From positions 1-39,877 of the forward strand of contig CAJODC010000014.1 of the NCBI GenBank assembly GCA_905233215.1: 39,877 nucleotides of DNA, in the 5' to 3' direction. Shown here piece by piece: positions 1 to 9,143 of the stretch (within the stretch, counting starts at the first letter, position 1; every line of letters begins with the position of its first letter). Both the position numbers and the translations under genes were made by a program. The notes under the pieces are model-generated. The model was not told the origin of the DNA. It searched no databases and worked only from the letters and a program-made list of their open reading frames with translations. Source of the stretch: an uncultured Synergistales bacterium (GTDB lineage: Bacteria; Synergistota; Synergistia; Synergistales; Aminobacteriaceae).

Positions 1-562
1 TTAATGCGCCAAGAAGGGCAGATGTAGGATCAGTGTCGGTATACCCTGCGGCTATGGCGTAGCGATATACTTGTCCAATAACAGCCTTAACTCGTTTGGC
101 TGTCTCATCACGTCCCGTGTTTTCGATTTTTCTACAAATCCTTAACACATTTCCTGACGTTATCTCTTTTAATGGCCAAGCTCCTACTTCCGGCAGTACA
201 TATTTGTTCAATCTGAATCGTATTGTTTGTAAGTAGTCTTCATCTCTGCCTTTCATCCGTATATTGAGCCATTCAGCCGCAACCTCTGAAAATGTTTGAG
301 GAGCATCAATCGTTTTACGTGAGGGACTTTCGCCTTTAGCTCTGGCTGTCTGTATCTCATCGCGTTTTATGCGAGCATCTTTCATGGACAAATCAGGGTA
401 CGGACCGAGCGACAATTTATGCTCCTTGTTGTTTTCCCAGTAACGCAGTATCCAGTATTTTCGGCCTGACGGATCGATGCGAAGATACAGTCCTTTGTCA
501 TCGCGCATCATATAACTACCGTTGCGCGGTTTTGCACTTTTCACCTGTAACTCTGTAAGCAT
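1..562 (-). CDS. Tyrosine recombinase/integrase, P4 type, N-terminal part (runs off left edge)
   Basis: The frame is open from an ATG at 562 to the window edge, giving the first 187 residues; the frame continues outside. The N-terminus matches the arm-type DNA-binding domain (DUF4102) of P4-like integrases, with GLYLRIDPSGRKYWILRY and LSLGPYPDLSMKDAR at about residues 24-65. From about residue 90 (TFSEVAAEWL) a SAM-like core-binding domain follows. The catalytic R-H-R-Y part lies beyond the edge, so activity cannot be judged. The start is supported by AAAGGAG eight bases upstream. The gene reads away from the adjacent tRNA-Ser in the same direction, the usual layout of an element integrated at a tRNA 3' end. 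The family call is secure; whether the element is intact is unknown. Confidence 0.9.
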   Translation of the reverse strand, partial: MLTELQVKSAKPRNGSYMMRDDKGLYLRIDPSGRKYWILRYWENNKEHKLSLGPYPDLSMKDARIKRDEIQTARAKGESPSRKTIDAPQTFSEVAAEWLNIRMKGRDEDYLQTIRFRLNKYVLPEVGAWPLKEITSGNVLRICRKIENTGRDETAKRVKAVIGQVYRYAIAAGYTDTDPTSALLGAL

Positions 563-586
563 TGATTATTACTCCTTTCACTAGAT

Positions 587-635
587 ACCGTACAAAGAAT
601 TGGTACGGTGATTTTGTTGTACGTTTTTTTGTACG
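587..635. repeat. Cluster of TTGTACG-type repeats in the integrase leader
   Basis: Four GTAC-centred copies lie within 50 bases upstream of the integrase start. An inverted pair ACCGTAC (587-593) and GTACGGT (603-609) is followed by a direct pair TTGTACG (617-623 and 629-635). A further TTGTACAA occurs at 872-879, over the -35 box of the tRNA promoter. They could be arm-type sites, excisionase sites or an autoregulatory operator. Function is inferred from position only. Confidence 0.5.
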
Positions 636-687
636 ATGCTATATAGGCTTTAGGCGGTTTCCTTTGGTCATTCTCGGAGTAATGATA

Positions 688-715
688 ACAGAAAACCCGT
701 CTACTAGACGGGCTT
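688..715 (-). terminator. Rho-independent terminator downstream of tRNA-Ser
   Basis: On the minus strand CCCGTCT and AGACGGG form a stem with a 3-base loop, extended by A-T pairs, followed by TTTTCTGTT. It lies 37 bases past the tRNA 3' end, between the tRNA and the integrase, and would end the tRNA transcript before the integrated element. Confidence 0.7.
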
Positions 716-751
716 CTATATTTTAACGGTCTTTACCGTATTATCTTTCAG

Positions 752-836
752 CGGAGAATGGAGGATTCGAACCCCCGGAGGCTTGCACCTCAATTGATTT
801 CAAGTCAACCGCCATCGACCACTCGGCCAATTCTCC
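752..836 (-). tRNA. tRNA-Ser (anticodon TGA)
   Basis: The 85-base minus-strand sequence folds as a class II tRNA. The acceptor GGAGAAT (836-830) pairs with ATTCTCC, with discriminator G at 752. The anticodon loop CTTGAAA gives anticodon TGA (UCN serine codons). A long variable arm is present and the T-loop is GGTTCGAATCC. CCA is not encoded. Its 3' end faces the integrase gene, so it is the likely attachment site (attB/attL) of the element at the left edge. Confidence 0.96.
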
Positions 837-849
837 AAAAACGAGCGAG

Positions 850-879
850 ATTATATCACATGATGTAGAATTTGTACAA
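850..879 (-). promoter_or_regulatory. Sigma-70 promoter of tRNA-Ser
   Basis: On the minus strand TTGTAC (879-874) is followed after 18 bases by TATAAT (855-850). TGA directly precedes the -10 box, giving an extended -10 (TGATATAAT). Initiation would fall a few bases before the tRNA 5' end at 836. Confidence 0.75.
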
Positions 880-905
880 GAATAATTTTAGAGGGGGCAT
901 TTTCA

Positions 906-1952
906 TTGTCAGAGTACACAATTTCAAAGGTCTACCCGTCAGACAAGAGAGGAAATTCACAGGTTGAGAAATTGCTTTTGTCTGAGGGCATAAGGCGGGA
1001 CAAGAATCTTGATTATACCTGTGCTGTTTACGATGACGACTACAATGTTATTGCGACAGGGAGCTGTTTCGGAAACACATTGCGCTGTATGGCCGTCAGT
1101 CGTCAGCATCAGGGCGAAGGCTTAATGAATGAAGTAGTCTCTCACTTGGTACAGCATGAATATGAGCGAGGGGTAAATCACTTGTTTCTTTACACGAAAT
1201 GCAATTCGGCAAAATTTTTCGGGGACTTGGGATTTTACGAGATAGTCAGGATTGCCGATCAGGTTGTATTCATGGAGAACAGGCGAACAGGTTTCAGCGA
1301 TTACCTTTCGGAGCTGTCAAAAACAAAACGTGAAGGGAAAAACATTGCCGCACTCGTCCTCAATGCCAATCCATTCACGCTTGGTCATCAATTTTTGGTC
1401 GAAAAGGCTTCGAGCGAGAATGATGTGCTTCACGTTTTCATTGTCAGCGAGGACGCTTCACTTGTTCCGTTTGAGGTGAGGAAGAGGCTTGTTATCGCAG
1501 GGACTTCACATCTTGGCAACATAATTTATCATGACACAGGGCCGTACATCATAAGCAGTGCGACATTCCCGAGTTATTTCCAGAAAGATGACGAGGCGGT
1601 AATAGAGAGCCATGCGAATTTGGATCTCGAAGTTTTCGTGAAGATAGCTGAAACTCTAGGGATCAACGCTCGTTATGTCGGTGAAGAACCGAAGAGCCTC
1701 GTTACTGGAATCTACAATCGGATAATGTCCGAGAAACTTCCCGAACACGGCGTGAAGTGCGTGATAGTTCCGAGAAAGACTGAGGGCGGAAAGGTCATAA
1801 GCGCGTCAGACGTTAGGCAGGCCGTCAAGGAAGGAAGGCTTGAGGAAATTCGAGGGCTTGTCCCTGAGAGTACGTATGAATTTTTCGCTGGCTCTGAGGC
1901 TGAGAGAGTCATAGCGAAGATTAGAGGTACTGAGAACGTTATACATTACTAG
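906..1952 (+). CDS. citC: [Citrate (pro-3S)-lyase] ligase
   Basis: CitC acetylates the prosthetic group of the citrate lyase acyl-carrier subunit and so activates the enzyme. The 348-residue length is normal for the family. Residues about 1-125 look like a GNAT acetyltransferase fold (RQHQGEGL at 66-73). The rest is a nucleotidyltransferase domain with the HxGH-like motif NPFTLGH at 155-161. The start is TTG at 906, preceded by AGAGGGGGC. The next gene, a MATE exporter, follows after 11 bases and is probably co-transcribed. No citDEF, citX or citG lies nearby, so this copy is an orphan. It could serve lyase genes elsewhere or modify another carrier. Family call strong, physiological role uncertain. 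Confidence 0.87.
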   Translation: MSEYTISKVYPSDKRGNSQVEKLLLSEGIRRDKNLDYTCAVYDDDYNVIATGSCFGNTLRCMAVSRQHQGEGLMNEVVSHLVQHEYERGVNHLFLYTKCNSAKFFGDLGFYEIVRIADQVVFMENRRTGFSDYLSELSKTKREGKNIAALVLNANPFTLGHQFLVEKASSENDVLHVFIVSEDASLVPFEVRKRLVIAGTSHLGNIIYHDTGPYIISSATFPSYFQKDDEAVIESHANLDLEVFVKIAETLGINARYVGEEPKSLVTGIYNRIMSEKLPEHGVKCVIVPRKTEGGKVISASDVRQAVKEGRLEEIRGLVPESTYEFFAGSEAERVIAKIRGTENVIHY

Positions 1953-1963
1953 GGGGTGATATT

Positions 1964-7417: not shown

Positions 7418-8491
7418 ATGAACAAGCGCAGAATTGACGAAATCGGAATAAGATACGTTGAAAGCCTGAAACTTTACGAAGAGTATGCCGCAAGAATCCG
7501 CAATCTGATTCAAGACCTCGTTGAGGTTGAAGGCGTTGAGTTTTATGCGATTGACGGCTGGGCTGAGAGTCCTGCCGAACTTTTGCACATTCTCTCAACT
7601 CTCGAAGAAAAAGATCTCGCAGGTGTTGACTTGGTTACTGTGAGAGTGCTTTTGCGTTTCCCTGCTGACGTTCTCAGAATAGAGTCTCTCATCAAGTCTG
7701 AATTTGATGTTGACGCTTCACGCTCTCTCCCCTCAAATTCAAGAATGCTGAAAGATCCCGGACGTTTCGGTTATCCTGCTGTCGTCTACGTGCTTTCGCT
7801 TTCACATTCACGTTCAAACCTCAAGGAGTGGGAAAAGTACAAAGACCTCAATTTTCGTCTTGAACTCCGTACGCTTTTGCAGGAGGCTTGGGCTACGATA
7901 GTTCCGAAAGTCAGCCAGACAGTAACAAAAGAATCCGAAGAAGAATTTACACGTGAATTATTCCTATTGGGGGCGATGCTTGAGAAGGCCGACAAGGGAT
8001 TTTTGACACTTCGAGAGGAAATCAGGAACGAGGCTGTTTTAGTCCCTCCGTCAGAAAAAAGAGACACTGAAAAAATTACGGCTGAAACAGTTTTCACTGA
8101 TGAAGAACTTTACCAGCTCTTCCGTGATGATCCTTCGCTTCTCGGAAAATGGAACGCCAACGCAATCTCGGCAGGTTTCCCGGAATTTACACCCGATGCT
8201 GATTACCTGCGTGAAAGTTTCTCTCACCTCTGCGGAATTTTGAGGGCTTCGGGAATTGATACGATGTCCGAAGTGAAAAAGTTTCTCGATGACATGGACA
8301 ATGACGGCAAAGGTCAACGACAGCTCAAGACGCTTCATGAATCTTTCAGCGATAATGACAACTGGAGGGTTGATCCTTTTTCGGCGATTTTCCTTTTGGT
8401 ACTGAATTTCAAATGGGACATACTCAAAGACAAAGATTTGGCAGGTCTGGGAATCAAACGAGGCTCAGACCGTATCAGCGGTAAAGATTAG
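7418..8491 (+). CDS. RelA/SpoT-fold protein with altered catalytic residues
   Basis: This 357-residue protein has the layout of a small (p)ppGpp synthetase domain in residues about 15-170. DLVTVRVLLRFPADV (71-85) matches the DxxGxR motif, with Asp71 and Arg76 kept but Gly replaced by Thr. FGYPAVVYV (117-125) matches GYRSxH with Gly-Tyr kept but Ser and His lost. FRLELRTLLQEAWATI (146-161) matches the ExQxRT region, but the metal-binding Glu is Arg147 and the Gln is Glu149. By family knowledge that should abolish or change pyrophosphokinase activity. Residues about 180-357 form an acidic extension that I do not recognise. There is no ribosome site. It may sense nucleotides or act as a regulator without making (p)ppGpp. 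Fold call moderately sure; function unknown. Confidence 0.7.
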   Translation: MNKRRIDEIGIRYVESLKLYEEYAARIRNLIQDLVEVEGVEFYAIDGWAESPAELLHILSTLEEKDLAGVDLVTVRVLLRFPADVLRIESLIKSEFDVDASRSLPSNSRMLKDPGRFGYPAVVYVLSLSHSRSNLKEWEKYKDLNFRLELRTLLQEAWATIVPKVSQTVTKESEEEFTRELFLLGAMLEKADKGFLTLREEIRNEAVLVPPSEKRDTEKITAETVFTDEELYQLFRDDPSLLGKWNANAISAGFPEFTPDADYLRESFSHLCGILRASGIDTMSEVKKFLDDMDNDGKGQRQLKTLHESFSDNDNWRVDPFSAIFLLVLNFKWDILKDKDLAGLGIKRGSDRISGKD

Positions 8492-8507
8492 GAAAGGAGC
8501 ATTTTCA

Positions 8508-9143
8508 ATGGCAAGAAGCATAATATTATGGTCGATAGTGTCGTACTTAATCGGCTCATTCCCAACCGGCTACATCGTAACAAAACTCTTCCACAAAGAC
8601 AAAGACGGTAAACATGACTGGCTCGACATTCGCACAATAGGTTCAGGCGCAATCGGTGCCACTAATGTCGGCAGGGCGATGGGGCCTGTGTGGTCATGGT
8701 TCACAGCGATAGTCGACATGCTCAAGGGTGCGTTCGCTCTTCTTTTGGCTGCGCAGATCGAAGCCCCTGAAACTCAGGAGATAATAGCAGCGGTTTCGGC
8801 GTTCGCTGTTGTACTCGGTCATAATTATCCCGTCTGGTTGAAGTTCAAGGGCGGCAAAGGCGTGGCGACAAGTTACGGAACATTGTTCTTCATTTGGCCG
8901 TATAAGTCATTCGCTGCCGTTCTTCTCTGCGGCGGACTCTGGTACATCATCAGGGGTACAACACGAATCGTCTCCGTAGCGTCAATGGTCTCGCTCGCTT
9001 GCGTGTCAGTGTGTTTCGCAATGCTCGGTGCGCCGGTAACGTTCACAATTCTCGCCGCGCTTCTCGCTCTTCTCTGCGTTTGGAGACACCGCACTAACAT
9101 TGTGAGAATAATCAACGGTACTGAAAACAAGTGGCATAAATAG
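8508..9143 (+). CDS. plsY: Acyl-phosphate:glycerol-3-phosphate acyltransferase
   Basis: PlsY uses acyl-phosphate to acylate glycerol-3-phosphate, the first step of membrane phospholipid synthesis. The 211-residue protein has five to six membrane segments and the three family motifs: YLIGSFPTGYI near residue 13, IGSGAIGATNVGR near 45-57 and GHNYPVWLKFKGGKGVATSYG near 105-125. The second motif usually reads GSGN; here the Asn is Ala. The start is supported by AAAGGAG. It follows the RelA-like gene by 16 bases and is probably co-transcribed with it. A terminator follows. Confidence 0.95.
   Translation: MARSIILWSIVSYLIGSFPTGYIVTKLFHKDKDGKHDWLDIRTIGSGAIGATNVGRAMGPVWSWFTAIVDMLKGAFALLLAAQIEAPETQEIIAAVSAFAVVLGHNYPVWLKFKGGKGVATSYGTLFFIWPYKSFAAVLLCGGLWYIIRGTTRIVSVASMVSLACVSVCFAMLGAPVTFTILAALLALLCVWRHRTNIVRIINGTENKWHK

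Follow-up and report, generated by a model that had tools for sequence, protein, structure and literature searches.

The first 750 nt of the window, which is the entire contig C14 (39,877 nt) of a 1.74 Mb assembly in 80 contigs, very probably form one end of a mobile element, integrated in the 3' end of a tRNA-Ser(TGA) gene through the action of a P4-like tyrosine integrase. This element is most likely a prophage or its remnant, and its far end was located on another contig of the same assembly, at C18:692-705. In the mechanism we propose, a short copy of the tRNA end carried by the element (attP) would have recombined with the tRNA gene (attB). After such an exchange, the tRNA gene would be whole on the integrase side, and 14 nt of its end would be repeated at the opposite edge of the element. 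Presumably, the window integrase catalysed this insertion, and the missing middle of the element would be phage-derived. Tyrosine-integrase elements that insert in tRNA 3' ends and leave a displaced tRNA fragment are textbook knowledge; the system is thus ordinary in kind, the only new point being that a case has now been mapped in ruminant-gut Synergistaceae. A literature search on integrases, prophages and tRNAs in Synergistaceae or Synergistetes found no paper.

The features of the window, whose base 1 is a contig end, are:

1-750, no strand: integrated element, visible portion, extending past the contig end (from the empty-site comparison)
2-562, minus strand: 5' part of a tyrosine integrase gene, 187 codons encoding the arm-binding and central domains, truncated where the contig ends
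616-635, minus strand: putative integrase arm-type site CGTACAAAAAAACGTACAAC, with its other exact copy at C18:590-609, inside the far end
750-763, minus strand: attachment core at the tRNA end, made up of the tRNA's final 13 nt and one further nt (CTCCATTCTCCGCT), with its other copy at C18:692-705
751-836, minus strand: tRNA-Ser(TGA), which served as integration target and is still intact (from ARAGORN and the relatives' tRNA comparison)
906-1952, plus strand: first gene of the host flank, for a protein with a citrate lyase ligase C-terminal domain and a weak GNAT match

A P4-type integrase reads away from tRNA-Ser

ARAGORN finds a single tRNA in the window, the tRNA-Ser(TGA); of the 35 loci compared in relatives, 17 have a tRNA identical to it over 86 of 86 nt. 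The gene at 906-1952 adjoins this tRNA in many relatives, which makes it a conserved neighbour, and further large ORFs follow it rightward of the tRNA. On the other side, the ATG of the integrase ORF is at 562, separated from the tRNA 3' end by 188 nt (563-750), and the gene reads away from the tRNA. The original prediction had described this arrangement correctly, with a distance of 190 nt.

The visible 187 codons of the integrase are open at base 1 and carry no damage. They match Arm-DNA-bind_3 (E 1.6e-21) and Phage_int_M (E 2.1e-25), a combination that we take to be the mark of a P4-type tyrosine integrase, and the earlier assignment to that type holds on these two domains. Complete P4-type integrases combine Arm-DNA-bind_3, Phage_int_M and Phage_integrase; the window protein has the arm-binding and central domains in common with them, whereas the catalytic domain is not visible in it and would lie beyond base 1. 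The only Phage_integrase catalytic domain found across the assembly is that of a different, broken integrase copy on contig C38. Among phage records, the ten best matches listed are 35-38% identical to the window integrase over this part.

The two ends restore an empty site found in relatives

We searched 43 genomes of the same genus, the own genome included, with window 600-1960, and compared the DNA left of tRNA-Ser in 36 of them (35 relatives and the own genome; G014, G019, G022, G023, G027, G028 and G039 were left out). The direct left neighbour of the tRNA is larE, a gene of about 270 codons reading away from it, in 14 of the 35 relatives' loci, and the seven best-scoring relatives of the search are all among these 14 (in one, G029, only the first 79 codons are on the contig). 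In the remaining relatives the left side varies. The larE homologue of the own genome (NCBIfam TIGR00268, LarE, E 4e-100) is on contig C18, at 764-1570. The sequence CTCCATTCTCCGCT at C18:692-705, 58 nt before the larE start codon, is identical to window 750-763 on the minus strand, and this 14-mer occurs at two places in the whole assembly, also when one mismatch is allowed.

When the outer flanks are joined (C18:706-905 reversed and window 750-836), they align with the tRNA/larE junction of the relatives, and the restored junction includes a stem-like AAAAGYCCTGYA...TACAGGRCT stretch. The alignment took in 12 of the 14 larE-bearing relatives (all except G010 and G029), and G003 aligns poorly on the larE side. 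Because of the 14-nt repeat and the restored tRNA/larE empty site, we place the element between the window core (750-763) and, to the left of it, the C18 core (C18:692-705). The link between C14 and C18 comes from repeats and gene order, not from reads, and the middle of the element is absent from the assembly. It had been predicted that an island or prophage boundary is visible here with the element left of the window, and a repeat of the tRNA 3' end at its other end and an empty site in relatives had been named as checks. Each point found support: the element lies between C14:1 and C18:1, the repeat is 14 nt long, and larE directly follows tRNA-Ser in relatives as it does in the joined flanks.

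Islander (PMC4383910) uses tRNA 3'-end integration with a displaced tRNA fragment as its detection rule, and its islands have a tRNA gene, an integrase at the 3' side and a 3' tRNA fragment in the same orientation at the far end, as here. At this locus, there is an intact tRNA-Ser(TGA) at one end, a partial integrase gene inside and, downstream at the other end, a 3' tRNA fragment that reaches the tRNA end in the same orientation, the order being taken from the gene order of relatives. The empty site in relatives, also found, is our addition and no Islander filter. In contrast to the Islander islands, this element is on two contigs, so the length (2-200 kb) and in-between filters are inapplicable.

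A second repeat accompanies the core. In the assembly, the 20-nt CGTACAAAAAAACGTACAAC has its only exact copies at window 616-635 and at C18:590-609, a further match on C5 having 3 mismatches. The distance to the core is 114 nt for the integrase-side copy and 82 nt for the far-end copy. The repeat is probably an arm site of the integrase, and similar sequences are found upstream of the integrase in related loci. The viral contig L130, whose integrase is 66% identical to that of the window, has in one piece the order arm, 64 nt, tRNA-like end, 81 nt, arm and integrase, which looks like an uncut attP. The L130 core has CCCTCACAGTCCA in common with the tRNA-Lys end on C38 of the own genome. In G022, a second arm-like repeat, exact to the reference motif, is 17 kb from the integrase-side one; despite this repeat, no tRNA-Ala end of at least 11 nt was found there.

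Copies of the tRNA end were also sought elsewhere. Beyond the tRNA itself, its terminal 13-mer occurs in G002 (one copy), G015 (two), G018 (one), G029 (on its C20) and on C18 of the own genome. The G018 copy has an arm repeat beside it, and C20 of G029 also matches the tRNA in the window 600-1960 search; the G002 and G015 copies are within what looks like coding DNA, and the pieces retrieved around them gave no tRNA. When 36 loci, the window's included, were scanned for direct repeats of the tRNA end left of tRNA-Ser, a long one ending at the tRNA appeared only in G012 (L058), where a 19-nt repeat is 835 nt away; no relative of the window integrase was found at that locus. The 12-nt matches in G010 and G041 are far away and were taken as chance.

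The far end carries a HicB-like gene pair

The far end on C18 differs in composition from the DNA that follows it, with a G+C content of 39% in C18:1-691 vs 47% in C18:706-12000. It holds two small overlapping ORFs, at 1-297 (cut by the contig end) and 294-584. The second matches PHROG 497, HicB-like (E 3.5e-7), and has no Pfam or NCBIfam match; the first matches PHROG 273, of unknown function (E 0.0049), with no NCBIfam match and a single Pfam match, at chance level. The pair is plausibly a working toxin-antitoxin module, in which the first ORF would be HicA, judging from its position. As in HicAB modules, the second gene is HicB-like and the pair overlaps; unlike in those modules, the first C18 gene has no above-chance Pfam or NCBIfam family. 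Among viral contigs, neither the window integrase by itself nor the first C18 gene had a match, the HicB-like protein matched one distant locus at 33%, and C18:1-705 had no match by DNA among phage records.

At the relatives' tRNA-Ser, an integrase of the window family, whole or as a fragment, is present in 5 of the 35 loci: those of G036 and G018 are 61-63% identical to the window's and that of G013 is 36%, while G035 and G006 have fragments. In G018, contig C89 (L135, 1-1700) carries a homologue of the first C18 gene (68% identical) together with a HicB-like gene with an internal deletion, and after this pair come an arm repeat, a tRNA-Ser end and an integrase remnant. This is an independent case of a C18-type far end, apparently in tandem with a second insertion.

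One could speculate that the element is itself a short decayed remnant, with little between the attachment copies beyond a broken integrase and the toxin-antitoxin pair. Decay is common here, as seen in the internal stop and deletion of the C38 integrase and in the G035 and G006 fragments. Yet the visible integrase codons are intact and, if the gene is whole, its catalytic half would be beyond the contig end, and we regard so short a remnant as possible but rather doubtful.

Relatives of the integrase adjoin phage genes

The original prediction left open whether the element is a genomic island or a prophage, and here the relatives of the integrase favour a phage-derived element. Beside related integrases are genes for a tail sheath, a major head protein, neck, head decoration and a holin (L114), and for a holin and a peptidase M15 (G019). 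At the same tRNA-Ser, G036 has a holin and a glycosyl hydrolase 108 protein near the integrase, the latter also matching a PHROG endolysin. L130, from the viral collection, carries an exonuclease, a DnaB-like helicase, repressors and an endolysin. This classing of loci comes from selected tested genes, not from full annotation of each locus. It is because integrase relatives adjoin phage genes, and because of the attP-like arrangement of L130, that we take the element to be most likely a prophage or its remnant.

Both phages and islands can have P4-like integrases, and the element may instead be a non-phage genomic island or another integrative element using the same tRNA site. This would agree with the visible far end, which has only the HicB-like pair, and with the searches of the own genome for phage genes, in which neither the amidoligase that follows the integrase in G036 nor the tail sheath was found (0 of 43 genomes had a tail sheath match above the cut-off). 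Against it are the lysis and structural genes adjoining related integrases, including the G036 copy at the same site, and the replication, lysis and repressor genes of L130, and we therefore consider an island unlikely. That the ends of C14 and C18 are assembly artefacts and their common repeats a coincidence is barely credible: the assembly is fragmented and both contigs end inside genes, but two independent repeats (14 and 20 nt), neither with other exact copies, match in order and orientation, and joining the flanks restores the empty site.

Other observations concern the related loci themselves. An Amidoligase_2 gene, by family match, follows the integrase in L117 (11854-12798), and L067, L113, L116 and L121 have ORFs that resemble it in their opening sequence. 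In the own genome, C38 (L004, 1-2346) begins inside a tRNA-Lys gene, whose end is followed by another integrase of this family; this integrase has an internal stop and has lost a large internal stretch, and the ORF next to it has a PAAR motif match and, by eye, a truncated reverse-transcriptase-like part. The C38 locus is probably a decayed prophage. In L067 (about 1-2279, G019), a pair of repeats of about 90 nt, 800 nt apart, precedes a reverse transcriptase gene on the prophage side, and in one 90-nt frame the two copies differ at 13 positions, every one of a single base type that is apparently adenine in the gene-proximal copy. Such a one-base-type pattern would be the mark of a diversity-generating retroelement. 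A weaker similar pair in L116 (18078/18862) has 6 differences, 83% of them on one base type.

Spacing is kept while targets differ

Most records with related integrases are from Synergistaceae or Synergistales bacteria, and goat and deer are the source of several. Of the 18 integrase loci listed, 15 allowed the distance to a tRNA or tmRNA to be measured, and in 13 of these, the window and C38 included, the integrase starts 178-190 nt past the 3' end. Because so many of the measured loci fall in this range, the integrase-tRNA layout is not due to chance. The outliers are L120, at 205 nt (with an estimated start), and L127, at 224 nt; in L126, L128 and L130, ARAGORN found no tRNA next to the integrase. 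When 13 related integrase loci were scanned for direct repeats, no convincing far end emerged. A 14-nt tRNA-Lys match at C38:8308 was rejected as a far end, as it is inside an ORF (7461-8717) and does not include the last 6 nt of the tRNA.

The targets of the family are Ser-TGA, Ala-GGC, Ala-CGC, Val-CAC, Val-GAC and tmRNA, and that of the C38 integrase is Lys, its anticodon having been read by eye from the cut gene. The visible part of the window integrase is 79% identical to the copies in G019 (Ala-CGC) and G022 (Ala-GGC), and 62-63% identical to two at Ser-TGA. Such close relatives with different targets suggest that these integrases may have switched targets. On the integrase tree, the target label changes 9 times vs a shuffled mean of 8.9, and was as low in 153 of 200 shuffles; the tree (15 rows of at most 190 residues each, with L068, L121 and short fragments left out) has no well-supported branch. 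The ruminant-gut Synergistaceae prophage-like loci L114, L117, L113, L116, L121, L125 and L067 share the integrase family and the tRNA spacing with the element described here, but their targets differ (Ser, Ala, Val) and, unlike here, their bodies are at least partly visible.

Both ends of the element are thus fixed to single-base precision across a contig gap, which gives a concrete prediction for its excised form and for the empty site. It is also tempting to speculate, very tentatively, that one lineage of Synergistaceae phage integrases has moved again and again between tRNA-Ser, tRNA-Ala, tRNA-Val, tRNA-Lys and tmRNA as targets, with an unchanged geometry (a spacing of about 178-190 nt and paired arm repeats), so that the choice of target would evolve fast and separately from the rest of the integrase. 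If such target switching is true, this integrase family would offer a natural series of cases in which to study changes of tRNA target by tyrosine integrases.
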